DNA of 30,186 nucleotides. It comes from a virus. The notes under the pieces were generated by a model. That model had not been told where the DNA came from. It saw only the letters and a list, made by a program, of their open reading frames with translations, and searched no databases. Below are positions 2,731 to 21,073 of this stretch, in pieces. The position numbers were made by a program, and so were the translations under genes. Within the stretch, counting starts at the first letter, position 1; every line of letters starts with the position of its first letter. Location of the stretch: positions 1 through 30,186 of IMG/VR virus record IMGVR_UViG_3300050019_000036; one strand, written 5' to 3'.

Positions 2731-3216
2731 TCATCGAGCAAGTTTGACCGTGTAAACAGGTGGTCGCGAATTAATGTCGTATCGGCAGGCGATTCGAACC
2801 GCCTCCTGGGCGCTCTTACCGGCCGCCATGGCGCCGATGGCAAGCAGGCGACCTGATCCAATCGCGGCGAACCCGCCAATCTCCCAGACCCCGACATCGT
2901 CTTTGAATTCGGCGTTCCAGTTCGCCTCGCTGGAATGTGTCATCGACACCTTGAAGATGCGCCCACGTGGCAGCACCAGAAGCCCCATATAATCGAGGCG
3001 GATCTTCAGGATGTCGTCGCGCGACGGCAGGCCCGCCGGTGTCTTCACTTTGTCCAGCAGACGCTCAACCGCCCTGGCATCGTTGTCGCCGGCCTGGCCC
3101 AGCAGCGCGCCGGACGATAGTCGCACGATCTTAGATGTGAGCGTGTCGACGACGTCATCGCAGGTCCAGCACGAGTCGCAGGCCATGAGGCCGTCTTTGT
3201 AGGCAACCGTCGTCAT
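2731..3216 (-). CDS. HslV/proteasome-like N-terminal nucleophile hydrolase
   Basis: This 161-aa protein begins M-TTVAYKDGLMACDS, the hallmark of proteasome-beta/HslV folds in which Met is removed and Thr becomes the nucleophile. An Asp 13 residues on (CDS) and a Lys about 28 residues on (TSKIVRL) match the spacing of the HslV catalytic set. A GQAGDNDARAVERLLDKV stretch follows, and AIGSGRLLAIGAMAAGKSA near the C-terminus is the conserved glycine-rich strand and helix. Phages carry several such proteins of uncertain function; no HslU-like ATPase is visible here. The start overlaps the metallophosphoesterase stop by 4 bases, so the two are coupled. Activity is inferred, not shown. Confidence 0.75.
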   Translation of the reverse strand: MTTVAYKDGLMACDSCWTCDDVVDTLTSKIVRLSSGALLGQAGDNDARAVERLLDKVKTPAGLPSRDDILKIRLDYMGLLVLPRGRIFKVSMTHSSEANWNAEFKDDVGVWEIGGFAAIGSGRLLAIGAMAAGKSAQEAVRIACRYDINSRPPVYTVKLAR

Positions 3217-4433
3217 GCCGCCACCTCCGCGTCTTGGATCGGCGTCACGACGTCGCCGTACCAGCCGAATCGATTGTGGTAAGTGATCGCCTTAACTGAG
3301 CGCCCAGATAGGAAGCCGGCGCCGAAGTGCCACGCGTCTTGCGGGATCGGTGCCTGATGCACTTCCGTGATGACGCCCTTGCCTTCCGTGGCCAGCATTT
3401 CGCGGTGATGGACATGGAAACAATGAACGAAGCGGAAGATCGTCTCGCCCCAGTCCTTGGCGCGGCGATGCGCCATAATGCTCGCCATGTCCTTCGCTTT
3501 GACGGTGTGGCCGTGCGTCGCCCCGAGCAACACCGTGCCGAAACGGAACCACCAGAACAACGAGGGGTCGAGATCGACGGTAACGCGCGACTCGTTGCGA
3601 TACCATGCCGCGAGGAAGTAGGCGACGGCGACCGCGCTATGCTCGTCGTGGTTGCCGGGCAGTATCCGGACGGTGATGTGGTCGTGACGGCGCAAGCACG
3701 CGTCGATTGTTCGGACCATCAGCTTCGTGGCAACGCCGACAACCTTCTGATAGCGGCCATCGACTTGTAGGATGTTGCCGCTTTTCGCCGTGGTGTTATT
3801 GGAATTGTCGGCGTGCAACAGGTCGCCGCCGCCGAGCACAATGCACCGACCACTCGCTGGACTTCGCGCTATCGTATCCTCGACCGCGCGGCCGATCGTA
3901 TCCTCGGCGATCTTCAAATCCCAGTCGGTGCCGACTTCCTTATTCCATCCGTACATTCCGATGTGCCAGTCGTTGCAAGGCAACAGCGTGAGAAATTCGG
4001 CGCAGGTTGTAACGGGGGCAGGCGTAACCGGAGCGGCAGGCCGGTAATCGCAAAATGCTTCTTTGAGCGACTCGGCGATGGCGAGCGGGTCAATCTCGCC
4101 TTCCCTGGTCTTTATCCATTTGACGATCTCCGCGCCATCCGGTCCGACCAGAGTAGAGACGCCCTTGACCGTATGCCCAGGAGGCATTTCGAATTGGCCG
4201 CCGTGCTCCGGCTTCTGCTGGACCGATTGCCCATGCGGGCCGTCAGTGACCTGGCTGATCCGGAATCCCGGCATTGTCGGCGGACGGTCCAGCATCATGC
4301 CGCGCGATGCCGCCTGCTTTAGACTGAAACGCAGCGTCGCTGGGTCAATACCCAATTCGCGCGACGCCGCTGCATTTCCAAGTCTATTGTAAACCTCTAC
4401 TCGCTGACGAAGATCGTCATCGGACAAGGCCAT
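3213..4433 (-). CDS. Metallophosphoesterase with N-terminal helix-turn-helix
   Basis: This 406-aa protein has an HTH-like segment at about residues 7-45 (RQRVEVYNRLGNAAASRELG) and a calcineurin-like phosphoesterase domain from about 145. All metal-binding motifs are present: D155-x-H157 (NDWHIG), GGGD204, G-N261-H-D (PGNHDEH), H307-G-H (THGH) and H340-x-H342 (HCFHVHH). A two-metal hydrolase acting on phosphodiesters or nucleotides is therefore likely. The HTH suggests it may be brought to nucleic acid. It sits 3 bases after the RlpA-like gene and overlaps the HslV-like gene. Similar phage proteins occur near structural genes, but the substrate is unknown. Confidence 0.82.
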   Translation of the reverse strand: MALSDDDLRQRVEVYNRLGNAAASRELGIDPATLRFSLKQAASRGMMLDRPPTMPGFRISQVTDGPHGQSVQQKPEHGGQFEMPPGHTVKGVSTLVGPDGAEIVKWIKTREGEIDPLAIAESLKEAFCDYRPAAPVTPAPVTTCAEFLTLLPCNDWHIGMYGWNKEVGTDWDLKIAEDTIGRAVEDTIARSPASGRCIVLGGGDLLHADNSNNTTAKSGNILQVDGRYQKVVGVATKLMVRTIDACLRRHDHITVRILPGNHDEHSAVAVAYFLAAWYRNESRVTVDLDPSLFWWFRFGTVLLGATHGHTVKAKDMASIMAHRRAKDWGETIFRFVHCFHVHHREMLATEGKGVITEVHQAPIPQDAWHFGAGFLSGRSVKAITYHNRFGWYGDVVTPIQDAEVAA

Positions 4434-4436
4434 TTG

Positions 4437-4769
4437 TTATGCCTCTTCGAAAGTTACCGTGACAACGCCAGCATTAAGAAAGCCAAGGACACGAGCCGCG
4501 CCGCGCGACAAGTCGATACATCGCCCGGTCCATTTGGCCGGACCACGGTCGTTTATACGCACGACAACCGAACGGCCCCTGTAGTTCACACGTAAATTTG
4601 TGCCAAACGGATAGCCCCAAATAGCTGCCGTAAGACCATCAGGTTTGAAACGTTCGCCATTCGCCGTGATCTGGCCTTCGTGATAGAAAGAAGCCTTGCA
4701 CGTCGTGGCGTCGGCTCTAGCAGGCAATAAAAAAGCAGCCACGAGGGCGGCTAGAGCTATAGCCTTCAA
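4437..4769 (-). CDS. Secreted RlpA-like double-psi beta-barrel protein
   Basis: The 110-aa product has a cleavable signal peptide (residues 1-21, LAALVAAFLLPARADA) followed directly by an RlpA-like domain: KASFYHEGQITANGERF, AAIWGYPFGTNLRV, VVVRINDRGP and IDLSRGAARVLGF. E39 (NGER) and D74 (NDRG) occupy the positions of the two acidic residues important in characterised RlpA lytic transglycosylases. It lacks the SPOR domain, so it is a stand-alone catalytic-type domain in the periplasm. The start is a TTG; no in-frame ATG is available upstream. In this operon it probably modifies peptidoglycan during exit, or protects or reshapes the septal wall. Confidence 0.83.
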   Translation of the reverse strand: MKAIALAALVAAFLLPARADATTCKASFYHEGQITANGERFKPDGLTAAIWGYPFGTNLRVNYRGRSVVVRINDRGPAKWTGRCIDLSRGAARVLGFLNAGVVTVTFEEA

Positions 4770-4788
4770 AACATAAATCCGTGATGCA

Positions 4789-5022
4789 TTATCTCAGCCT
4801 CAAGCACTTCTTCGCTTCGGCGATTTGTTGTTCGCTGGCGCCAGCAGCTCGGGCTACCCGCTCGGCCTCTTTGGGTCCGAGGGTCGCGACCGTTGCGCGG
4901 ATATCCTTGCAGTAGTCTGTGATCTCGTCGGCGGGGGATTGGCCTACGCCAAGACAGAAAAACAATGAGATGACGCACGCGAACCAGATGACGATGACGG
5001 TGGCACCGCGATTATTGATCAT
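4789..5022 (-). CDS. Small exported or membrane-anchored protein, 77 aa
   Basis: An N-terminal hydrophobic segment (residues 8-27, TVIVIWFACVISLFFCLGVG) is followed by a short helical periplasmic domain with two cysteines (DYCKDIRATVATLG ... EAKKCLRLR). Either signal peptide or anchor is possible. The AASEQQIAEAKK-type helix and paired cysteines suggest a small disulfide-stapled helical hairpin. No family recognised. It lies between another small exported protein and the RlpA-like gene. Confidence 0.65.
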   Translation of the reverse strand: MINNRGATVIVIWFACVISLFFCLGVGQSPADEITDYCKDIRATVATLGPKEAERVARAAGASEQQIAEAKKCLRLR

Positions 5023-5034
5023 TGAATTAAACCT

Positions 5035-5256
5035 TCAGATATTTTCAAATCGATCGAGATGGTTACAGGGGCCATAGCCATCCGCCCAACCGAAGTGCAT
5101 CACGCCGAGAATATCCTTGCCGGCGGCTCGATAGGTGATGACGCAGTAATCAGTCTGGACGAGTCGGATCTTCGGCATCGTGTCTGCCGCCATAGCGATA
5201 AGCAGACAGATCGTGACTAGCAGGATGGATATCCGAATCCTAAGATTTGCGGACAC
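5035..5256 (-). CDS. Small exported protein, 73 aa
   Basis: GTG start five bases after the upstream stop. The N-terminus is basic (NLRIRIS), followed by a hydrophobic stretch (ILLVTICLLIAMAADTM) that is a signal peptide or anchor, and then a compact, aromatic-rich domain with two cysteines (DYCVITYRAAG, GYGPCNHLDRF). Family unknown; it belongs to the run of envelope-targeted genes. Confidence 0.6.
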   Translation of the reverse strand: MSANLRIRISILLVTICLLIAMAADTMPKIRLVQTDYCVITYRAAGKDILGVMHFGWADGYGPCNHLDRFENI

Positions 5257-5261
5257 GTCTT

Positions 5262-5786
5262 CTATTTAACTACATGGGGGAGGAATGCCTGCGAAGCTCC
5301 AATCAACAAGCCCAAGAATGAGATTACCACGGCGATCAGAAGTAGGGTCTGCCCGTTGAAGGAGAAGTTATCCCGCCTGCCCTCGCTGCCGGCGAAGATG
5401 CGCCCATCACCCAAATCAAGGCGTGATGTCAGGCGATCGATCTTTTCGTTGGTGGCCAAATTCGCGGTAGTAAAGCTGGTCTGTAACTGCTTGATCAGAT
5501 CGACCATCGCCAGCTCGCTCTTCGCGGCTGACTCCTTCTGGGTTTGCAGCGCGGCGCTCAACGCTACCGCGTTTGCCTTAGCCAACTGGTCGACCAAGTC
5601 CTTGTTGGCATCGAAACGCCCCTGAATTGTCGCGTTCATTGCGATGAGCTTTCCATTGAGGTCTTCGCGGGCAAGATCAGTGGCTTTATCAATGGCGTGA
5701 AATTTCTCGGATATTTTTTCGTCAAGGGCATGGATCTGTAGGGTCAATGTCTCCTTGACGGCTAAGTGCGCGAACTCAGTAGTCAT
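5262..5786 (-). CDS. Coiled-coil protein with C-terminal membrane anchor
   Basis: This 174-aa protein is helical and heptad-rich from about residue 10 to 130 (ETLTLQIHALDEKISEKFHA, EKIDRLTSRLDLGDG) and ends with one hydrophobic segment at about 147-168 (LLLIAVVISFLGLLIGASQA). That is the reverse of a classical inner-membrane spanin, which has an N-terminal anchor and a periplasmic coiled coil. With a C-terminal anchor the coiled coil is most likely cytoplasmic unless the protein inserts N-out. The start overlaps the upstream lipoprotein stop as ATGA, which implies joint production. Confidence 0.72.
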   Translation of the reverse strand: MTTEFAHLAVKETLTLQIHALDEKISEKFHAIDKATDLAREDLNGKLIAMNATIQGRFDANKDLVDQLAKANAVALSAALQTQKESAAKSELAMVDLIKQLQTSFTTANLATNEKIDRLTSRLDLGDGRIFAGSEGRRDNFSFNGQTLLLIAVVISFLGLLIGASQAFLPHVVK

Positions 5787-6172
5787 TGCACGGCACGATT
5801 ACGAAAGAACAGTGATAGCCAGCGTTGCTTGAATGTCTGTTTTGGGGCGATTACGGCTGGCGCAACAACCACTGGCGGGACAACCGTGACAATTGGCGCA
5901 ACGACAACAGCGGGCTTAGCGACAACATGCGGTTGTCGTACTGGGCGTTCGCGAAAGAACTTGCGAAGCAAGCGGCGCTTTAACGTCTGCTTGGCAATTG
6001 GAGCGGGCGCAACGGGCGCAGCGACAATAGCAGGCTTCGCAACAACGGCAGAGGCCGGGACCTTCGTAATCTGATGGTACGGCACTGCCGCAGTATGTTC
6101 TGCTTGCGGAGCATGAGCGCAGGCGCCTAGCAGCAACGCAACCACGCTAATGCTTGATAATACTCGCAACAT
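5783..6172 (-). CDS. Basic Ala/Pro/Val-rich lipoprotein with twin repeats
   Basis: Residues 1-18 form a lipoprotein signal (VVALLLGAC, lipobox L-G-A-C). The mature protein is Ala/Val/Pro-rich and contains two copies of a basic amphipathic motif: KQTLKRRLLRKFFRERPVR and KQTFKQRWLSLFFRNRAVQ, the second at the extreme C-terminus, each preceded by a VVAPxxxAP-type linker. The architecture (outer-membrane lipoprotein, Pro-rich linker, basic helices) recalls outer-membrane spanins, but it is longer than Rz1. The gene starts 26 bases inside the preceding holin-like gene and is coupled to the coiled-coil gene. Confidence 0.7.
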   Translation of the reverse strand: MLRVLSSISVVALLLGACAHAPQAEHTAAVPYHQITKVPASAVVAKPAIVAAPVAPAPIAKQTLKRRLLRKFFRERPVRQPHVVAKPAVVVAPIVTVVPPVVVAPAVIAPKQTFKQRWLSLFFRNRAVQ

Positions 6173-6548
6173 TCTGAAACATCCTTTTCCCGTAATACCA
6201 TGAGATAATTAGGCCGACCCAGACACCAACGGCGCCTCCGATTGGAGCAGTTGAACCGTCTGTTAACGAGCCAAGCACCTTGTCCCAGATGATGACCTTC
6301 GCCATGTAAATCAGGACGATGTAGAATCCGAGTTTTTCAGGTTCTAGCGGATGCCCCACTTCGGCAATCTTGAGCTGCGTGGCCGCCTGAATTTCGGCAG
6401 TCTGTGCGGCGATCTCCTGGCCGGCGAGCGTAGCGGCGGTCATGTTATCGGTTGTGGTGGCCGTGAGATGGGCTTGATACGCACCGAGCATTGCCTTGGC
6501 GATGGGGCCGCCAAGCCACTTGAAGAGCATTGATGCGAAAGCTAACAT
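6147..6548 (-). CDS. Holin-like membrane protein, 133 aa
   Basis: An amphipathic N-terminal helix (FKWLGGPIAKAMLGAYQAHL) and an Ala/Thr-rich helical linker precede two hydrophobic segments at about residues 74-93 (FYIVLIYMAKVIIW) and 103-119 (GAVGVWVGLIISWYYG), followed by a basic tail. Together with the neighbouring 76-aa gene and the endolysin this fits a holin or holin partner. The layout resembles gene-transfer-agent and alphaproteobacterial phage holins, but I cannot name the family. Start overlaps the upstream stop as TGATG. Confidence 0.68.
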   Translation of the reverse strand: MLAFASMLFKWLGGPIAKAMLGAYQAHLTATTTDNMTAATLAGQEIAAQTAEIQAATQLKIAEVGHPLEPEKLGFYIVLIYMAKVIIWDKVLGSLTDGSTAPIGGAVGVWVGLIISWYYGKRMFQNVASIIKH

Positions 6549-6778
6549 CAGCCAGCCGCCTTTGATCCAACCGGCCCCGTGGTGACGATGCGCAAGATCA
6601 CGCCGAGCACAGCGTTGCAGACAATAAAGACCGCAACGTATTTTGCCGGGATCACGGGCGTTACATCGACCGTTGAAAATTGCGTGTAGACGTAAAGCGC
6701 ACCGGCCGGAAGGCCAACTACTGCGTTGGCTATGATGGTTTTATAGCCCTTGAGGCGAATTCGGAGCGCGGCGAACAT
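6548..6778 (-). CDS. Small two-segment holin-like protein, 76 aa
   Basis: Two hydrophobic segments, about residues 14-33 (TIIANAVVGLPAGALYVYTQ) and 46-64 (KYVAVFIVCNAVLGVILRI), with a basic N-terminus (RIRLKGYK), fit a class II-like holin or small phage membrane protein. Ribosome site AGGA lies 8 bases before the ATG. It is followed without gap by the 133-aa membrane protein. It is the best canonical holin candidate for release of the cytoplasmic GH24 endolysin encoded upstream. Confidence 0.68.
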   Translation of the reverse strand: MFAALRIRLKGYKTIIANAVVGLPAGALYVYTQFSTVDVTPVIPAKYVAVFIVCNAVLGVILRIVTTGPVGSKAAG

Positions 6779-6793
6779 TTCAATTTTCCTGAG

Positions 6794-7378
6794 TTAACGC
6801 GCCAGTAAGGCGCATACGGTTCGCGACGGCACGATCGTCATAAAATTAGAATTGCCAATCCCGCCGACGTTTATACCGACCACATAACCATAACGGTCAA
6901 TAGCGGGGCCTCCACTCATTCCGGGGCCAAGCGTTCCGTCAACAACATAGGCTTCTTTCCAATCTCCAACTTTAGCTATTTGCGATTTTGCTAAATGTCC
7001 CCAGCTAGTCAACAGATCAAGTGTGTACGGATTGCCTTCGAACGATAATAGTTCGCCTTGATCAAGATAACGACACGACAACGAACGCGACTTAACGTTT
7101 TTGAAATCGCTAATCCTCAACAATGCAACGTCGTAGATTTTGTTTGCCCACATTAATTCGGTATTGTGAACAATACCCTTGCTGTCCTTGATGCTGATAT
7201 GGGCTTCATCGTCAATCACATGGAAGGCTGTAAGAACTAAGCCGTTACCAATATGGACGCCAGAACCGTGGCCATCGCCTAAGTCGACGTATAGAGTCGA
7301 AGATGCTAGTTTGCTATGGTCGACGCATCCGCAAAGACATAGGCACAACATTGCTGCAGCAACTAACGACTTGCTCAT
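6794..7378 (-). CDS. Lipoprotein trypsin-like serine protease
   Basis: From the MSKSLV start the protein has a lipoprotein signal (AAAMLCLCLCGC, lipid-attachment Cys18) and a trypsin-like domain with the full triad: H53 in LTAFHV, D83 in YDVALL and S155 in GPGMSGGP. GSGVHIGNGLVLTAFHVID is the typical N-terminal beta-barrel entry, and VVGINVGG follows the serine. At 194 aa it is a single domain without PDZ. An in-frame ATG at 7402 would add eight residues; either start lacks a strong ribosome site. It should be anchored in an envelope membrane facing the periplasm. Phage-encoded lipoprotein proteases are uncommon; the target could be spanin-like partners, outer-membrane proteins or incoming phage proteins. 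Confidence 0.82.
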   Translation of the reverse strand: MSKSLVAAAMLCLCLCGCVDHSKLASSTLYVDLGDGHGSGVHIGNGLVLTAFHVIDDEAHISIKDSKGIVHNTELMWANKIYDVALLRISDFKNVKSRSLSCRYLDQGELLSFEGNPYTLDLLTSWGHLAKSQIAKVGDWKEAYVVDGTLGPGMSGGPAIDRYGYVVGINVGGIGNSNFMTIVPSRTVCALLAR

Positions 7379-7460
7379 GTGATAGGCCGCCCCACTCATC
7401 ATTTTGCAGCCACCAGCTAATTACGGTCAACACCGCCATACCGGCCGCCACGAATGTCAT
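7314..7460 (-). CDS. Possible overlapping 48-aa membrane ORF
   Basis: In another minus-strand frame an ATG at 7460 opens a 48-codon ORF with an N-terminal hydrophobic segment (VAAGMAVLTVISWWL), which bridges the gap after the 55-aa gene and overlaps the 5' end of the protease gene. Most of its remaining sequence lies within the protease signal region and may be fortuitous. Overlapping reading frames are normal for spanin pairs, so it is recorded with low confidence. Confidence 0.25.
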   Translation of the reverse strand: MTFVAAGMAVLTVISWWLQNDEWGGLSHEQVVSCCSNVVPMSLRMRRP

Positions 7461-7477
7461 CTCGCAATACAGAAAGA

Positions 7478-7645
7478 TCAGAGCTTCTTAGCTGCTACGG
7501 TGAGAGCTTCCGCCTGAGAATGAAGTTTTTGAGAGAGTGCATTGGCTCCGATGACAAGCTTCTGTATGGATGGTTTTAGAAACCACACCAGGGCTCCCCC
7601 AGCGATGAAAACAATGATGTCCCCTAAGAAAGTAAGAGCGAACAT
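7478..7645 (-). CDS. Small membrane protein after endolysin, 55 aa
   Basis: ATG at 7645 starts a 55-codon ORF four bases after the endolysin stop, with AAGGA inside the endolysin's last codons as ribosome site. The product has one hydrophobic segment (MFALTFLGDIIVFIAGGALV) followed by a basic amphipathic helix (KPSIQKLVIGANALSQKL). This is a typical small lysis-cassette membrane protein (holin, antiholin or pinholin-like); which one cannot be told. Confidence 0.65.
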   Translation of the reverse strand: MFALTFLGDIIVFIAGGALVWFLKPSIQKLVIGANALSQKLHSQAEALTVAAKKL

Positions 7646-7649
7646 GATG

Positions 7650-8300
7650 TTATATTCCTTTTGGTTTGAAGATTGAGAATACGGTATCCATAACAGACGC
7701 GATTATCGAACCATCCGATGGGATAGAAGGTGCTAACGGTTTGGGGATATCAGGAGGCGGCGGGTTTGGCGGCAGGATAACGACGGGAGGGCGCGTAGGA
7801 GCTTGTGGCATTGGACCGCCAGGGGCCGCAGCATGAGCACCAGCTAGTTTCATGGCTTGCGGTACTTGGCCAAAGAACATCAGTCGTTCGGCTTGCCGAC
7901 GCCGCGTAAGGCCATCCATCTGTCGCCCGCCCGCGTGGTCGTATTGCAGCAACGTGCTCATTGCTGCGATGTTATTTCCGGCGTTGATTTTGTCATCAAT
8001 AGATGACTTTCTGAGCGAGCCCGTGTTAAAGTCGAACGACACAAGAGCATCGAATTGGTTTTGCTTCATCGGAATTCTAACGCAATGCTCGACGTTCTTC
8101 TCTACGGCAGAAAGATCGTTCGCAAGGATGGCGTCACACTGTTCATTCGTGATGACCATGCCACGAGTGACTAAAGGAGGCCCGGCGGCAGAGGTGTGGC
8201 CATAGCCAATCGTCAGAACGCCCGTTCCGTCATCGTATGTTTTCAGGAACCTGCCTTCAAACGCCTCAATGAAGGCCCGTCCATCGGGTGATGTTTTCAT
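7650..8300 (-). CDS. GH24 lysozyme (endolysin)
   Basis: This 216-aa protein contains a T4-lysozyme-type muramidase domain with the catalytic set spaced as in T4: E15 (FEG), D24 (YDDG) and T30, followed by IGYGHT. Further conserved parts are QNQFDALVSFDFNTG and LTRRRQAERLMF. It should cleave the MurNAc-GlcNAc bond of peptidoglycan. There is no signal or SAR anchor at the N-terminus, so export would need a holin. Residues from about 165 are a Pro-rich linker (PPVVILPPNPPPPDIPKP) ending in a hydrophobic helix (SIIASVMDTVFSIFKPKG), unusual for GH24 endolysins. Start supported by GAGGA before ATG. Confidence 0.93.
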   Translation of the reverse strand: MKTSPDGRAFIEAFEGRFLKTYDDGTGVLTIGYGHTSAAGPPLVTRGMVITNEQCDAILANDLSAVEKNVEHCVRIPMKQNQFDALVSFDFNTGSLRKSSIDDKINAGNNIAAMSTLLQYDHAGGRQMDGLTRRRQAERLMFFGQVPQAMKLAGAHAAAPGGPMPQAPTRPPVVILPPNPPPPDIPKPLAPSIPSDGSIIASVMDTVFSIFKPKGI

Positions 8301-8339: not shown

Positions 8340-10346
8340 TTATGCAATCTCAATGCAGCCGCAGACGACTAGTTCGGCACCGGCGCCAATGATCGACGTG
8401 TTATCGTATTTGGCTATGCTCATAAGATTAGCTGCCGCCGTGATAGAAACGTTGCATAAAAATCCATTGATCGAGAATTCTCGACCGCTTACACAGCAGT
8501 TATGCTTAGCGGTTAAACTCGCAGGAAGGGTTGCGATGATCGTACCCGATGCTGAGCCTACAGTCGTAATGTGGATATCAAGTTCAAAGGATAGCGATTT
8601 TCCAAAAAGCCGATAACTGCCCGTTGCGGTCGTTGTCGTAAATGTACCGGAACTGGCTGTGATGGTCGGGGTGTAGGTTTTCCAAACGCTGCTGTTCTGG
8701 GTCAATGTGCCGCCATCGGTGACGGTAGTGTCCCCTACCACGCTCGATGTATAGGACGGGTTATCGCCGATGACCGTCCGCGATGATCCGGAGCCGATCA
8801 CGATATGGGCTTGTGCATTTTCACGCAGCGTATTTTTATCAATCTGGGTGCCTACCGCAGTGCCTAGATTGATGTTCGGGATCGTTCCTGTTGTGCTATT
8901 GTTGGTAATACTGCAACCTGTAATGACACCGCCAACAACGCTGCCAATAGAACCGAGAAGATCAACCATGGAGCCGTGAGCATTTGCTCCTGGATTTTGC
9001 TCAAATTCACAATCGCGAATGATCGGAGTCAACGCGCAATCAACGACGATCATGCCGTCTTGATTTACGAAATTATTTCCTATCATCTTGAAGTTTGTAG
9101 CGCCCGCTACCTGATTGACGTAAATTCCCCGGTTTGGTCCATTGGTCGTGCCGAAAGCGTTTGCTCCGAACACGCATTTTTCAACCGTGATATTGTCAGC
9201 GACATAATCGAATTTCGAATTCATCAGCGTACATTTGCTAATGACAGAATCGATCATGGTATTGCCAGCAACTAATCCTTGGACAAGTAGCGAATGACCG
9301 TTCGCCATGTTGTCAATGAATACGTTTTCCATTTCGAAGAATTCGACGTATCCGTTGACGTTAATCGTACCATCAATATGGACGCCGTTGCGACCGTGCC
9401 CCGTATTGAAAACACCTAGAGCGGCAGTTACCGCGAGGTCTTTAAGTCTAAGCCCCGTTACGCGGTCGCTCATAGGAATATACAAGAAATCGCAAGTCGT
9501 CGGGACGCTGGCACCAATACGAAGGATAGAACCTTGCGGGTTAGTATAGACGCCGCCAACCTTTAGATTCCAGCCAACGCCTTGAATGGTAACGCTCTTG
9601 TTGGCGAAGTTAGAAAAATCCAGAATTCCTGCGCCGCCTGTTGCGGGGTCGGGAGAATTAAGCAGGAAATTACCAGCCGGGATGTTCAGCGTTCCACCGT
9701 ATGGCGTAGCAGCTAACGCCGTCCTAAACGCAGCCGCACTATCCGCAGCGCCTGTAGCGTCAGCTCCGTAGTCCATGACGTTGAAGGTGTCATTGAAGCG
9801 CGAACTGGCGGTACGGGCGGTTCCGCTGGCGGCAGTAAACGTAACGTCCGCAGCGTCCGGCTGCGTCAGATTCGGGACGCCGGACGTTGAGATAGTATTG
9901 ATCCATTTGTGCGAAACCGCAGCAATGGATTGCACTCCACCTAGCGTCGAGGCAGATGGTACGGGAAGCGCGGCGTCGAGCAAATTTCCGGAGGCGTCGA
10001 GTCCGGTCAGCATATGATTTGCTACTGCCGTTTTTTGGAATACACCTCCGAGTTTTGTCAGCGTTGGCGCAAGGGTTGCCACCGGCTTGAATCTCTTGCC
10101 GTCGAGAGAAACAATGCAGGTAACTCCGTCATCAGCGGTAGTGGTGTCGGTTGTATCTTGTATATAAGTGATGCCATTGGCTTTCACCGCGACAATCAAT
10201 TGTGCCGAGAGCGTAGTGTTACGAAGTTCTGTAAAATCAGCAAGCACCTGTGCGACGCGCGCCTTCGCCCACGCGACTAAATCGGCCTTCGCAACATTTG
10301 AAGTATTGGTAAGGCCGCCAATAAGTTCAATAGGATTTGCGGTCAC
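8340..10346 (-). CDS. Tailspike with pectate-lyase-like beta-helix
   Basis: The 668-aa protein starts with an adaptor-like region including an ITYIQDTTDTTTADDGV module (about 59-90) shared with the preceding fibre gene, then a STLGGVQSI ... TSGVPNLTQP linker, and from about residue 188 a right-handed beta-helix of the pectate-lyase superfamily (FNVMDYGADATGAADSAAAF, GGTLNIPAGNFLLN). The C-terminal domain from about 555 (TYTPTITASSGTFTTTT...) is likely a trimerisation or receptor-contact head. It probably binds and may cleave a surface polysaccharide. It overlaps the upstream fibre gene by 4 bases. Confidence 0.85.
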   Translation of the reverse strand: MTANPIELIGGLTNTSNVAKADLVAWAKARVAQVLADFTELRNTTLSAQLIVAVKANGITYIQDTTDTTTADDGVTCIVSLDGKRFKPVATLAPTLTKLGGVFQKTAVANHMLTGLDASGNLLDAALPVPSASTLGGVQSIAAVSHKWINTISTSGVPNLTQPDAADVTFTAASGTARTASSRFNDTFNVMDYGADATGAADSAAAFRTALAATPYGGTLNIPAGNFLLNSPDPATGGAGILDFSNFANKSVTIQGVGWNLKVGGVYTNPQGSILRIGASVPTTCDFLYIPMSDRVTGLRLKDLAVTAALGVFNTGHGRNGVHIDGTINVNGYVEFFEMENVFIDNMANGHSLLVQGLVAGNTMIDSVISKCTLMNSKFDYVADNITVEKCVFGANAFGTTNGPNRGIYVNQVAGATNFKMIGNNFVNQDGMIVVDCALTPIIRDCEFEQNPGANAHGSMVDLLGSIGSVVGGVITGCSITNNSTTGTIPNINLGTAVGTQIDKNTLRENAQAHIVIGSGSSRTVIGDNPSYTSSVVGDTTVTDGGTLTQNSSVWKTYTPTITASSGTFTTTTATGSYRLFGKSLSFELDIHITTVGSASGTIIATLPASLTAKHNCCVSGREFSINGFLCNVSITAAANLMSIAKYDNTSIIGAGAELVVCGCIEIA

Positions 10347-11617
10347 GAGGCATATTCCAAGACAGTAAGAGTGCTGCGATTGAACGAACTGGCACCGCTA
10401 GAAGAGGCATTATAAACTGACGATACGGCGTAGGTATGTGATGACGCGTCGTTGCTCACACAGGTAAACATGCAATTAACCGTCATCGCTAGAAACGTCG
10501 GACCGCCAATTATCTGCAGATAATCAACCGGAGTTGCTTCGCTATCGCGATAAAGTCCGAGAACAAAACTCTGACTCAATGCGCCTAATATAAGGTTCGC
10601 TTGATAATCAAACCGAAGTGGCACACTAGCGGCGCGCGCCGTGTACGTGACCGAATTGTTGTCAACGAAGCGATCTTTGTTAACCGGCGACGTTGTGGGA
10701 TTATAACTATAATTTCCGCCAGCACTTACGAGGGCGCCGTGTGCAGCAGCGACAAACGAACTGGCATGTCCGATCAAAGCGCCAATGGAAGATTGCCATG
10801 ACGTTCCGTTGAATTGAAAACTAGTGTTTAGCGCCTTGTCAAAAACTGCATCGCCCAGGACGGGGGTGATAATCGTGAACGAACCGGCCACCAGGCAGAT
10901 GGCCAGTTTACCAGTATTTCCAACCCATGCGCCGGTTGGAGAAGATCCAACGATGTAGGCGGTTGGTGTTGATGGAGATCCGGGCGGCGTATTGGTGGTC
11001 TGATTTTCAATCTTGATGACAAACGACGCATTGGCTCCAAGCACGGCGGTTATAGGAACGCTTCCAGCTGCCAACGTTTGCGTGCCGATTCCGGTGACCC
11101 AAGTGCCGCCGGCATTCTTGTGCCAGTAAGCATCTTGCGCCTCGTCATAAATGAAACGTCCGATGCCGAAATTTATAAATTCCCAACCGCGCTTTGTGAA
11201 GACGGTGATATAGTTGCTCTTGCCAGACCAAGCACCTGTTGCACCCGCTGCAATCCTGTAAGAATCACCGATAGTCGGTGATCCCGGCGGAGTCGAAGTC
11301 GTACCGTTCAGCACAGCAAATGCAAATACGTCTGAGCTGCTGCTTAGTTTATAGCGCCTACCTTCAAATGAAACCAGGCACGATACTCCATCGTTCGCCG
11401 TGGTGGTGTCGGTAGAGTCGTAATGAAATACCCTGCCAAGAAATAAGATATCAACGATCGATGCACCCGTTGACGGGTCTATCGCTACAAGATTCGTCAC
11501 CACGTCGGAGTCGGCTAGAACATATGGCATTCTAGCTACGGCGAGATTTCGCAATAGAGTTTTGCTTGCGCTGCCGGTAATCGGGAGTGCCGCAACAGCA
11601 TCATGGTTGGTTGACAT
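10343..11617 (-). CDS. Tail fibre with two DUF2793-like domains
   Basis: Two tandem DUF2793-like units are visible, about residues 97-175 (TPPGSPTIGDSYRIAAGATG AW) and 198-278 (TPPGSPSTPTAYIVGSSPTG AW). Before them, at about 62-91, is a module (FHYDSTDTTTANDGVSCLVS) shared with the spike gene downstream. The C-terminal part (from about 280) is beta-rich and Ser-rich. DUF2793 occurs in tail fibres of alphaproteobacterial phages. The gene lies between the J-like tip protein and the spike and probably connects or supplements them. Confidence 0.8.
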   Translation of the reverse strand: MSTNHDAVAALPITGSASKTLLRNLAVARMPYVLADSDVVTNLVAIDPSTGASIVDILFLGRVFHYDSTDTTTANDGVSCLVSFEGRRYKLSSSSDVFAFAVLNGTTSTPPGSPTIGDSYRIAAGATGAWSGKSNYITVFTKRGWEFINFGIGRFIYDEAQDAYWHKNAGGTWVTGIGTQTLAAGSVPITAVLGANASFVIKIENQTTNTPPGSPSTPTAYIVGSSPTGAWVGNTGKLAICLVAGSFTIITPVLGDAVFDKALNTSFQFNGTSWQSSIGALIGHASSFVAAAHGALVSAGGNYSYNPTTSPVNKDRFVDNNSVTYTARAASVPLRFDYQANLILGALSQSFVLGLYRDSEATPVDYLQIIGGPTFLAMTVNCMFTCVSNDASSHTYAVSSVYNASSSGASSFNRSTLTVLEYAS

Positions 11618-17784: not shown

Positions 17785-18573
17785 TTACATCCCTTGAATT
17801 ACGCGTTCGCCGATATAGCGAGATCCGCGAACGCCTCGCCTGATCCAATGAAAGATCGTGGATGGCCTCGTTGACAGCGCCACGGCTGCGGCGCTCAACG
17901 TTTGATATTCAACCCCCATAATCTCGCATGATCGAACCGTGGGCGGCTTTCGACCCTTACGATTTGCGGACTGCAGATCGCAAAATTCAGGCGATCTTCT
18001 CATGCCCAAATGTTTTTGACGGGTTAATTCAATAGACGCGGCCGATCTTTTCTTCCCGGTATTTGCTTTGCGCGTCTTTTCTATCGATTCTGAAGAATGC
18101 TTTCTTCCCATGCATTTCATTGAAAATGAAATGCGCGCTTCATCGGACCATTTCCTACCTGCAGCAGCTTTGATTCCGGCAAGATGGCGCGCAGATATAT
18201 TAGCAGTCCCCTCGCCTCCGTCAGTAAGATTGACGAGCGGGCCGGCCCCCTTATCGACCCTTCCTAACGTTCGGATGAGATAAATTTCGCGCGAGTGTGC
18301 TAATGAGATGATTTCGTGCCAGCTATCAATCTGATAAAGCGGACGAATACCATCACGGAACATTTTCTGAATTATTCGATTCTTATGCCCAACGCTTTTT
18401 GGAAACCGCGCAGTTCTTTCGTGTTCCTCGAGTCGCTGCCGATTCCAGGTCCTCACCTTCGCATAGCCTACATAAAATGGAGTACCATCGTGGCGCAGCA
18501 AAATGTAAACGTAGAATTTTCCGGGATTCGCTTTGATCTCTGCCATGGCGGCAGATAAGGTCATTGTAGCCAT
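17785..18573 (-). CDS. Free-standing GIY-YIG homing endonuclease
   Basis: This 262-aa protein has a GIY-YIG nuclease domain (about 18-120): YVYILL, PFYVGYAK, a basic RTWNRQRLEEHE helix, the catalytic Glu in SREIYLIRTLGR (E96) and VNLTDGGEG. It is followed by repeated NUMOD3-type DNA-binding motifs (GRKWSDEA, GRKHSSESIEK, GKKRSAASIEL, GMRRSPEF; about 139-196) and a C-terminal NUMOD1/IENR-like helix-turn-helix (LSAAAVALSTRPSTIFHWIR). All expected residues are present, so it is probably active. It is inserted between tube and chaperone genes and ends exactly so that the chaperone ribosome site lies in its last codons. GAGG precedes its ATG. Confidence 0.9.
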   Translation of the reverse strand: MATMTLSAAMAEIKANPGKFYVYILLRHDGTPFYVGYAKVRTWNRQRLEEHERTARFPKSVGHKNRIIQKMFRDGIRPLYQIDSWHEIISLAHSREIYLIRTLGRVDKGAGPLVNLTDGGEGTANISARHLAGIKAAAGRKWSDEARISFSMKCMGRKHSSESIEKTRKANTGKKRSAASIELTRQKHLGMRRSPEFCDLQSANRKGRKPPTVRSCEIMGVEYQTLSAAAVALSTRPSTIFHWIRRGVRGSRYIGERVIQGM

Positions 18574-19894: not shown

Positions 19895-20383
19895 TTACGA
19901 TCTGTGAAAGTATTGGAACGGACAACTGACGGTTACTCGGAACGTATTTCCGGCTTGAATGCCTTCGATATTTGCAGCGCTTCCACCGTCCGGTGGACTT
20001 GGCGCCATCGTGCGGACATACGAGCCGTTCGCGTCGACATAGAACGTCGCGGCGCGGAAGATTTCGCCCGCGTTCACCGCGAACTGCTGGGCGCGCGCAT
20101 CGCCCTCGTCGATCGGCACAAGAACGTGCAGCAAGATAAATCCGTCATAGACGAAGAACCGATTTCCGACGTCGCCGAATGTATAAGGATCACTTTTCGT
20201 TCCTGCGACTTCGCAAACTAGAAACGGCGCGGGATTTCCCGTCGCCGGATCGATCGGCGGGAACGGCGGATCTGGTTGTTTGTTGACGTAGACGATCAGG
20301 GTGAGCGGATTGCTCGACCCGTCGATCCATTGAGAAACGAGCCGCGCTTTAATCGCGGCAACTGCGCCGGCATAATCAGGCAT
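19895..20383 (-). CDS. Tail terminator-like protein, second tandem copy
   Basis: This 162-aa protein is a paralogue of the gene just upstream: the first 162 residues differ at only about 25 positions (both begin MPDYAGAVAAIKARL and end NTFRVT-SCPFQ). The location directly before the tube gene is that of the lambda U-like tail terminator, which caps the tail and joins it to the head (family inference). This copy stops at FHRS and lacks the C-terminal extension of the other. Only an AAGGA about 17 bases upstream is seen as ribosome site. Confidence 0.78.
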   Translation of the reverse strand: MPDYAGAVAAIKARLVSQWIDGSSNPLTLIVYVNKQPDPPFPPIDPATGNPAPFLVCEVAGTKSDPYTFGDVGNRFFVYDGFILLHVLVPIDEGDARAQQFAVNAGEIFRAATFYVDANGSYVRTMAPSPPDGGSAANIEGIQAGNTFRVTVSCPFQYFHRS

Positions 20384-20443: not shown

Positions 20444-21073
20444 TCAAGCTGTTCCTAGAAGATAGGCGCCGTCCGCGCCTGTGAGATAAGCGCCATCAGC
20501 GCCTTGGAGATAGACAAATCCCAACGGCGGCGCAGGTAGGAGATCCAACGGCGGCGCAGGCGGCCCAGATCCCCCAAGGGGAGCGAAGGCGCGATAGAAG
20601 AACTGAAAAGGGCAACTGATCGTCACCCGGAACGTATTTCCGGCCTGAATGCCTTCAATGTTTGCCGCGCTTCCACCGTCTGGCGGATGCGGGGCCATCG
20701 TGCGGAGATACGAGCCGTTGGCGTCGACGTAGAACGTAGCGGAACGGAAGATTTCGCCCGCAATAACGGCGAGCTGTTGCGCTCGCGCAGCGCCCTCGTC
20801 CATTGGTACGAGGACGTGTAGCAAGATCAGGCCATTATAAACGAAGAACTGATTTCCGAGATTGCCGAACGTATATGGATTGCTGTTCGTACCGGCGATT
20901 TCACAAACCAGAAACGGCGCGGGATTTCCTGTAACCGGATCGATTGGAGGAAACGGCGGATCGGGTTGTTTATTGACATAGACGATCAGCGTTAGCGGAT
21001 TGTTCGATCCGTCGACCCATTTAGTAATGAGCCGCGCTTTAATCGCAGCAACTGCGCCGGCATAATCGGGCAT
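20444..21073 (-). CDS. Tail terminator-like protein with C-terminal repeat extension
   Basis: Residues 1-162 are the tail-terminator-like domain shared with the following gene. Residues 163-209 form an extension: a Pro-rich linker (GGSGPPAPPLDLLPAPPLGF) and three short repeats YLQGADGA, YLTGADGA and YLLGTA. Such YLxGADGA repeats are seen at the ends of phage structural proteins and may mediate assembly or display. The corresponding DNA has an 18-base direct repeat (ATCCAACGGCGGCGCAGG type) near 20524-20563. It follows the neck gene after 4 bases. Confidence 0.78.
   Translation of the reverse strand: MPDYAGAVAAIKARLITKWVDGSNNPLTLIVYVNKQPDPPFPPIDPVTGNPAPFLVCEIAGTNSNPYTFGNLGNQFFVYNGLILLHVLVPMDEGAARAQQLAVIAGEIFRSATFYVDANGSYLRTMAPHPPDGGSAANIEGIQAGNTFRVTISCPFQFFYRAFAPLGGSGPPAPPLDLLPAPPLGFVYLQGADGAYLTGADGAYLLGTA

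Follow-up and report, generated by a model that had tools for sequence, protein, structure and literature searches.

A probably spanin-less lysis cassette in a temperate-type siphophage of Bradyrhizobium or a close relative

The virus record IMG/VR IMGVR_UViG_3300050019_000036 (30,186 bases; here the window, probably a fragment) carries on its minus strand, from position 8300 to 4437, ten adjacent open reading frames (ORFs), nine of which follow an endolysin gene. This region is almost certainly a lysis cassette, and the phage, a siphophage of temperate type, has soil bacteria as hosts, either Bradyrhizobium or close kin. The cassette very probably contains no spanin. As an overall explanation we propose, at roughly even chances, that a hydrophobic tail on the endolysin and a strongly basic 129-aa lipoprotein would open the outer membrane instead. 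A lysis cassette with cargo is the ordinary part of this picture; unusual are the shuffled endolysin tail, the recurrent basic lipoprotein and the spanin-less family to which the cassette belongs.

Gene order, lysis core and the absence of spanins

By their sequence features, all ten products are cell-wall enzymes, lipoproteins, secreted proteins or membrane proteins, in agreement with an earlier sequence-only reading of the window, which had described a tightly packed, partly coupled run of envelope genes. The packing is equally evident, with 96.6% of the 8300-4437 span coding and three consecutive overlaps in its middle. In gene order, the cassette comprises:

7650..8300, minus strand: endolysin, 216 aa, GH24 (T4-type) lysozyme domain (PF00959, PHROG 7)
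7478..7645, minus strand: p55, small membrane protein with one transmembrane (TM) segment and a charged C-terminal helix; predicted core, holin-like or holin accessory
6794..7402, minus strand: trypsin/HtrA-like protease with the lipoprotein signal LCGC (PF13365, 7.6e-17); predicted accessory
6548..6778, minus strand: p76, small hydrophobic membrane protein; predicted core, putative holin/antiholin partner
6147..6548, minus strand: p133, holin-like, with a long N-terminal helix and two membrane helices; predicted core
5783..6172, minus strand: 129-aa lipoprotein, lipobox LLGAC at residues 14-18, with a homologue in a Bradyrhizobium prophage (G109); candidate outer-membrane disruptor
5262..5786, minus strand: cc174, coiled-coil protein with a C-terminal TM segment at about residues 147-165 and no signal peptide
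5035..5256, minus strand: p73, small secreted protein with cysteine; predicted accessory
4789..5022, minus strand: p77, small secreted helical protein with a C...G...AkkCL pattern; predicted core in part of the family
4437..4769, minus strand: RlpA-like double-psi beta-barrel protein, secreted (PF03330, 1.4e-20); predicted accessory

Gaps of 4, 75 and 15 nt separate endolysin from p55, p55 from the protease, and the protease from p76. Overlaps then follow between p76 and p133 (1 nt), p133 and the lipoprotein (26 nt), and the lipoprotein and cc174 (4 nt), and the successive genes downstream of cc174 are spaced by 5, 12 and 19 nt. Homologues of p55, p76, p133, p73 and p77 occur in conserved order in other phages, and the lipoprotein, together with a metallophosphoesterase encoded at the downstream border, has homologues in the G109 prophage; because these homologues exist, we regard the cassette genes as real.

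Relatives were collected with a p133 scan, which yielded 34 viral loci, and a p133 profile scan, which yielded 65 genome loci, nearly all titled Bradyrhizobium, with one Nitrobacter, one Bradyrhizobiaceae metagenome-assembled genome (MAG) and one Rhodospirillaceae MAG. In 35 of these 65, p133 matched over most of its length; these close relatives and the viral loci make up a comparison set of 69 related loci, nearly all Bradyrhizobium prophages, with at least 1.5 kb of downstream sequence present in 57. About 30 further Bradyrhizobium genomes (L080-L109) match only the C-terminal half of p133 and have a different neighbourhood, possibly that of another prophage or of a lysis gene resembling those of gene transfer agents (GTAs).

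The sequence-only reading had noted that no canonical Rz/Rz1 pair is present, and for the cluster this holds. The whole 30-kb window has just two credible lipoprotein ORFs, both in the cluster, in which no Rz/Rz1 pair of an N-terminal-TM protein and a lipoprotein was found. The 129-aa protein, a short lipoprotein with a lipobox (LLGAC), has the form of an o-spanin; its neighbour cc174 lacks the i-spanin arrangement of an N-terminal TM segment and a periplasmic coiled coil beside the lipoprotein. In the relatives, lipoprotein scans loosened until both annotated Rz1 controls were detected revealed no convincing o-spanin-type lipoprotein up to 1.5 kb from p133; what matched besides was TM proteins of the p55 type, further membrane or secreted proteins, or noise (24 loci versus 16 on the opposite strand). 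Rhizobial phages do not lack spanins in general, since Rhizobium phages RHph_TM3_3_14B and RHph_Y5A possess Rz/Rz1.

Across the relatives, a recurring order is apparent: endolysin, p55 or a longer membrane protein, a p76-like protein, p133 and a coiled-coil/TM protein, followed in part of the family by a p77-like secreted protein. Homologues of p55 occur in 24 of the 69 loci, in conserved position (and also in the G109 prophage), and homologues of p77 in 11; among the viral relatives, 20 p76-homologous ORFs lie directly upstream of p133. At the lysis module, genes for the protease, the 129-aa lipoprotein and the RlpA-like protein are missing from all 69, and p73 is present in only one. This distribution suggests a core of endolysin, p55, p76, p133, coiled-coil/TM protein and p77, with protease, lipoprotein, p73 and RlpA-like protein as accessory inserts, and most of the extra cluster size would be variable cargo. 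The notion that the large cluster acts as one system is not sustained, as four of its genes are missing from all or almost all relatives, and the protease and rlpA genes sit in other contexts in other phages. The refuting case named in the sequence-only reading, lysis explained by endolysin, p76 and p133 with the remainder variable and dispensable, largely applies to protease, lipoprotein, p73 and RlpA-like protein; it does not apply to p55, the coiled-coil slot and p77.

Within the core, both the position and the TM segments of p133 fit a holin, and 4 of 21 members of its family match PHROG 3427 'holin' (up to 9e-4). Pfam returned no match for p133, and neither did tblastn against 50,697 phage records; its AlphaFold2 (AF2) model (helices H2-64, H70-92 and H105-132; predicted local distance difference test, pLDDT, 67) gave no meaningful match in a fold search. 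The probable holin/antiholin partner is p76. Judged by position, TM content and the weak PHROG holin matches, we infer that p133, with p76 and p55, would constitute the inner-membrane step. Some p55 relatives contain a cysteine in a lipobox-like context; their classification as lipoproteins was rejected, as this cysteine is not conserved and is absent from the window copy, and the hydrophobic run extends beyond it.

The endolysin tail and the basic lipoprotein

The window endolysin is composed of a GH24 domain (about residues 1-145), a proline-rich linker and a hydrophobic C-terminal tail, IPSDGSIIASVMDTVFSIFKPKGI; the C-terminal end of the protein reads PPPPDIPKPLAPSIPSDGSIIASVMDTVFSIFKPKGI. 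The domain assignment is firm (PF00959, E=4.6e-36, residues 13-138; PHROG 7 endolysin, 2.5e-49), and solved GH24 lysozymes match to 1.2e-27. Endolysins encoded upstream of p133 fall into at least seven sequence groups, with 50 members in A, three in B, four in D, two in E, one each in F and G, and two plus the window protein in C. Group C belongs to GH24 and group F to GH108; a single D member weakly resembles GH19, the E enzymes bear a peptidoglycan-binding domain, and for A, B and G Pfam gave no match. Common to groups A, B, C and D is a tail of the type P-S-[IVL]-x-x-P-x-x-G-S-[IL]-G-A-F-[IF]-x-x-[IL]-F-x-x-[IL]-F-[KRG]-[RK]-K. Among 63 endolysins upstream of p133, 54 end in the strict form and four in a variant, while three have a C-terminal TM segment and two another amphiphilic end.

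The C-terminal 60 residues of the window protein align to L003 (group A) with a score of 115 and to L026 (group D) with 100, compared with maxima of 70 and 78 in 1000 shuffles. The catalytic parts of groups A, C and D score at shuffle level against one another; B against C reaches 45, just above the shuffle maximum (43), and these two may be distantly related. A tail profile built without GH24 members recognizes the window copy as a weak match, which marks it as a divergent copy. The same profile matches in 34 of 199 Bradyrhizobium genomes and in 3 of 298 genomes of an order-wide sample, all three of them also in the Bradyrhizobium set; tblastn of the tail peptide against the phage records yielded no match. 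By its sequence, the endolysin is modular, with a linker and hydrophobic tail common to at least four unrelated catalytic domains. We tentatively suggest, at slightly less than even chances, that this tail contributes to outer-membrane disruption.

The second candidate is the 129-aa lipoprotein, which in its mature form has 112 residues, among them 15 Pro, 21 Ala and 20 Val, a net charge of +15 and two basic modules, KQTLKRRLLRKFFRERP and KQTFKQRWLSLFFRNRA, with charges of +5 and +8. Searched against Bradyrhizobium genomes, it gave weak low-complexity matches and one real one, in G109. There, the start codon of a 69-aa lipoprotein gene coincides with the stop codon of a holin-like gene (ATGA), and the lipoprotein gene in turn overlaps, again by ATGA, a gene for a 58-aa coiled-coil/C-terminal-TM protein; a p55-like gene, a gene for a 66-aa membrane protein and an endolysin that resembles group B and has a TM segment at its C-terminus lie upstream, and two secreted proteins followed by the phosphoesterase homologue lie downstream. 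The mature lipoproteins align with a score of 86 (shuffle maximum 64) and are identical at 13 of 16 positions in the basic, aromatic C-terminal module; the holins score 93 (maximum 51) and the p55 proteins 68 (maximum 38). Because homologue and neighbours both match, the lipoprotein recurs, though rarely, in one slot of divergent phages.

No comparably strong match and no module pattern was found in the other Bradyrhizobium genomes (of 272 searched), and the weak matches that were inspected, a part of the total, had no comparable lipoprotein ORF around their sites. Single-protein scans of viral contigs with the lipoprotein and cc174 found nothing, and both were without a match by tblastn against the phage records; in viral contigs, a DNA pattern for the basic module gave nothing beyond chance matches. 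Given its recurrence in the slot and its net +15 composition, a lysis role in the outer membrane is the most economical guess for this lipoprotein, and we consider it an evenly balanced question whether it acts in the outer-membrane step.

The main rival explanation makes the lipoprotein and cc174 a two-component spanin of odd topology, in which an outer-membrane lipoprotein and a C-terminally anchored inner-membrane coiled coil would fuse the membranes after the peptidoglycan is cut. The 4-nt overlap of the two genes, mirrored by the ATGA overlap of the G109 pair, and the proline richness that the lipoprotein shares with lambda Rz1 speak for it. However, cc174 is without a signal peptide, which should leave its coiled coil in the cytoplasm; the coiled-coil/TM slot, of whose occupants cc174 is the positional counterpart, is also filled in relatives that lack the lipoprotein; and cc174 aligns to the G109 coiled coil with a score of 33 against a shuffle maximum of 49. 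No sequence homologue of cc174 was found among the ORFs of the relatives or in the viral-contig and phage-record searches. We consider such a spanin unlikely. A unimolecular spanin, in which the lipid anchor would be joined by a hydrophobic stretch at about residues 81-110 as inner-membrane anchor and a basic cytoplasmic tail, is less likely still. The protein does have the N-terminal lipobox of the T1 gp11 type, hydropathy flags the Val/Ala/Pro-rich stretch, and the strongly basic KQTFKQRWLSLFFRNR that comes next fits the positive-inside rule, yet the stretch holds several prolines and has no hydrophobic counterpart in the G109 homologue, in which the basic module is what is conserved.

In the proposed spanin-less mechanism, p133 with p76 and p55 would make an inner-membrane lesion, through which the lysozyme would be released to cut the peptidoglycan. 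The endolysin tail would insert into and destabilize the membrane, taking the outer-membrane step that spanins perform elsewhere, and the lipoprotein would add to this step by presenting its two +5/+8 modules from the inner leaflet of the outer membrane, where they would be free to act once the peptidoglycan is gone. Protease, p73 and RlpA-like protein would be accessory envelope cargo, not needed for lysis. Indirect support for a non-canonical outer-membrane disruption, which the sequence-only reading had raised, comes from the lack of convincing o-spanin-type lipoproteins in relatives, the shuffled tails and the recurring lipoprotein. A more specific version is rather doubtful: that a lipid-anchored disruptor without an inner-membrane spanin partner or TM domain would break the rigid, hopanoid-bearing Bradyrhizobium outer membrane from inside via its basic aromatic C-terminal modules, jointly with a genus-restricted endolysin tail that unrelated lysozymes would exchange as an outer-membrane module. 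Bradyrhizobium lipid A is reported to contain very-long-chain fatty acids, linked to outer-membrane rigidity, and a covalently linked hopanoid (PMC5613085); that this outer-membrane chemistry selects special disruptors is speculation.

Several observations weigh against the tail and the lipoprotein as outer-membrane disruptors. Most copies of the hydrophobic tail are basic; that of the window is net neutral. Compared with composition-preserving shuffles, its hydrophobic moment is only weakly elevated (p=0.037), none of 50 group A tails reaches p<0.05, and the lipoprotein modules likewise have helical moments no higher than shuffles (p 0.22-0.65). The lipoprotein family has two known members, and five relatives of the G109 holin, a sister holin group, are without it. 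Lipobox and TM calls came from simple scripts, not trained predictors, and the phage may encode spanins outside the window, which spans a 30-kb fragment of its genome. The tail could also be an inner-membrane tether or retention device. Descriptions of the tail and of the lipoprotein modules as amphipathic helices were dropped after the shuffle tests of helical moment.

In a third rival, a dedicated outer-membrane disruptor is neither needed nor present; the tail would only direct the enzyme to the membrane or, as a holin-coupled tether, hold back its release, with the accessory genes as envelope cargo. It draws on tail amphipathicity no higher than shuffles, on endolysin C-terminal membrane segments that can serve export or timing (Enc34/M4Lys, PMC8943055), and on the possibility that some hosts do not need outer-membrane disruption (Kongari et al., PMC6139136). 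Against it, two divergent phages have the lipoprotein in their lysis slot, and the Bradyrhizobium outer membrane, reported to be rigid (PMC5613085), should not be fragile. We find this alternative unlikely.

Accessory genes and neighbouring features

Alignment to DegS identifies the His/Asp/Ser motifs TAFHV, YDVALLRI and GMSGGP in the protease, which has no PDZ domain. Its homologues are free-standing in two loci (L036 and L037); in Rhizobium phages, they are encoded after the lysis genes. In three Rhizobium/Sinorhizobium loci, L038:3843-5800 (RHph_X2_25), L039:3625-5906 (phage 16-3) and L041:3457-5303, the protease is followed by a four-TM protein of the MotA/TolQ/ExbB family (PF01618, 6.2e-05 in RHph_X2_25) and then by a protein that has one TM segment and a conserved soluble domain; the trio is a possible phage proton-channel plus protease module. 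In Zobellviridae phage KZY1, a proline/lysine-rich lipoprotein gene (L043:2640-3062) is located two genes upstream of the protease homologue.

For p73, a single homologue was detected, two genes downstream of p133 (L023:7680-7889). The p77 family, with the pattern C...G...A(K/R)(K/R)CL, follows the lysis genes in several Bradyrhizobium phages (loci L010, L011, L015, L019, L022, L025, L030, L031, L003 and L049). The AF2 model of p77 comprises a signal helix and three short helices (pLDDT about 87 in the mature part); searches gave no known family, no PDB fold match and no tblastn match in the phage records. The active site of RlpA lytic transglycosylases includes a His and an Asp. Aligned to PA4485, the RlpA-like protein keeps the Asp of NDRGP and has Ile in place of the His of TAAH (TAAI), which makes enzyme activity doubtful. 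In Rhodobacter phages, RlpA homologues adjoin the terminase.

It has been suggested from the sequence that the cluster may hold an exclusion system, and a fourth rival would unite protease, RlpA-like protein, p73 and p77 as a superinfection-exclusion or envelope-protection system. Their products are secreted proteins or lipoproteins, and the Rhizobium-phage protease adjoins the MotA/ExbB-like gene and another membrane protein. However, the accessory genes are not kept together in relatives, the protease and rlpA occur elsewhere in unrelated contexts, and the PADLOC matches are just the trypsin-like domains of larger, multi-domain proteins. Exclusion thus finds no positive support, and we hold this rival to be highly improbable.

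The cassette is bordered by the following genes:

10343-11617: tail-fibre/tailspike-type gene (DUF2793), upstream of the endolysin
8340-10346: tail-fibre/tailspike-type gene with a weak pectate-lyase match, upstream of the endolysin
3213..4433, minus strand: metallophosphoesterase, conserved gene bordering the cassette downstream

The metallophosphoesterase has DNA-level matches to the 'DNA repair exonuclease' of Rhizobium and Ruegeria phages and is identical to its G109 homologue at 152 of 403 positions. Its gene overlaps by 4 nt that of a 161-aa protein (2731-3216, minus strand), whose start, MTTVAYKDGLMACDS, is HslV/Ntn-hydrolase-like by eye, with no Pfam match at 0.001. Elsewhere on the minus strand, adjacent ORFs at 108-434 and 493-891 resemble by appearance a toxin-antitoxin pair, a HigB-like toxin of 132 aa and an XRE/HigA-like antitoxin of 108 aa; near-identical tandem copies of one tail-region gene lie at 19895-20383 and 20444-21073 (162 and 209 aa); and an ORF at 17785-18573 in the tail gene region, overlapping its neighbour, resembles a GIY-YIG homing endonuclease, with no Pfam match at 0.001. 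An Rfam search gave no match, and promoter and terminator counts were near shuffled levels.

Comparison with known lysis systems

In about 13% of surveyed phages no spanin can be identified, and their way through the outer membrane has been described as an open question (Kongari et al., PMC6139136). To this question the Bradyrhizobium prophage family contributes small candidates, a shuffled endolysin tail and a basic lipoprotein encoded in the slot after the holin. The host lineage, to which strain BTAi1 belongs, is amenable to genetics, which reduces the question to simple complementation. If a tail moves among unrelated lysozymes inside a single host genus, this would also point to selection of lysis modules by the chemistry of the outer membrane.

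With the lambda-type cassette (SpaninDB, Kongari et al. 2018), the window shares a holin-like gene, an endolysin, an outer-membrane-type lipoprotein and compact, overlapping small genes. In contrast to it, no type II i-spanin lies beside the lipoprotein, the TM segment of the coiled-coil partner is C-terminal, and the relatives of the window have no convincing o-spanin-type cassette lipoprotein. Rhizobium phage 16-3, one of 91 spanin-less phages in that survey (PMC6139136), has, like its relatives, a similar order of lysis genes, protease and phosphoesterase and no Rz/Rz1; the window cassette differs in its two lipoproteins, and the 16-3 endolysin as annotated has no such tail.

At the domain level, the window endolysin shares an Alphaproteobacterial GH24 type with the Bartonella GTA endolysin BgtA and Caulobacter SpmX (NCBIfam; 1.3e-35 and 4.5e-18), but is not the same gene as either, since its scores are far below the equivalog cut-offs. 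SpmX, too, combines a Pro-rich region with membrane segments at the C-terminus.

Membrane-active endolysin C-termini have been suggested as a spanin alternative (PMC6139136), and precedents exist in Pae87 (PMC8972805) and in the C-terminal TM segments of Enc34/M4Lys (PMC8943055). Like these and the lysozymes with C-terminal amphipathic helices, the window endolysin has a catalytic domain followed by a separate C-terminal segment, hydrophobic/basic in type, that would interact with the membrane; here, unlike there, one tail is found on at least four unrelated catalytic domains, only in Bradyrhizobium among the genomes sampled, and the window copy is neutral. Disruptins such as phiKT gp28 are basic phage polypeptides proposed for the outer-membrane step without spanins (PMC12819732). 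The 129-aa protein is not a short, soluble cationic amphipathic peptide free of a lipoprotein signal, as disruptins are; the candidate disruptor here is predicted to be lipid-anchored, with 112 mature residues and a proline/valine-rich linker.

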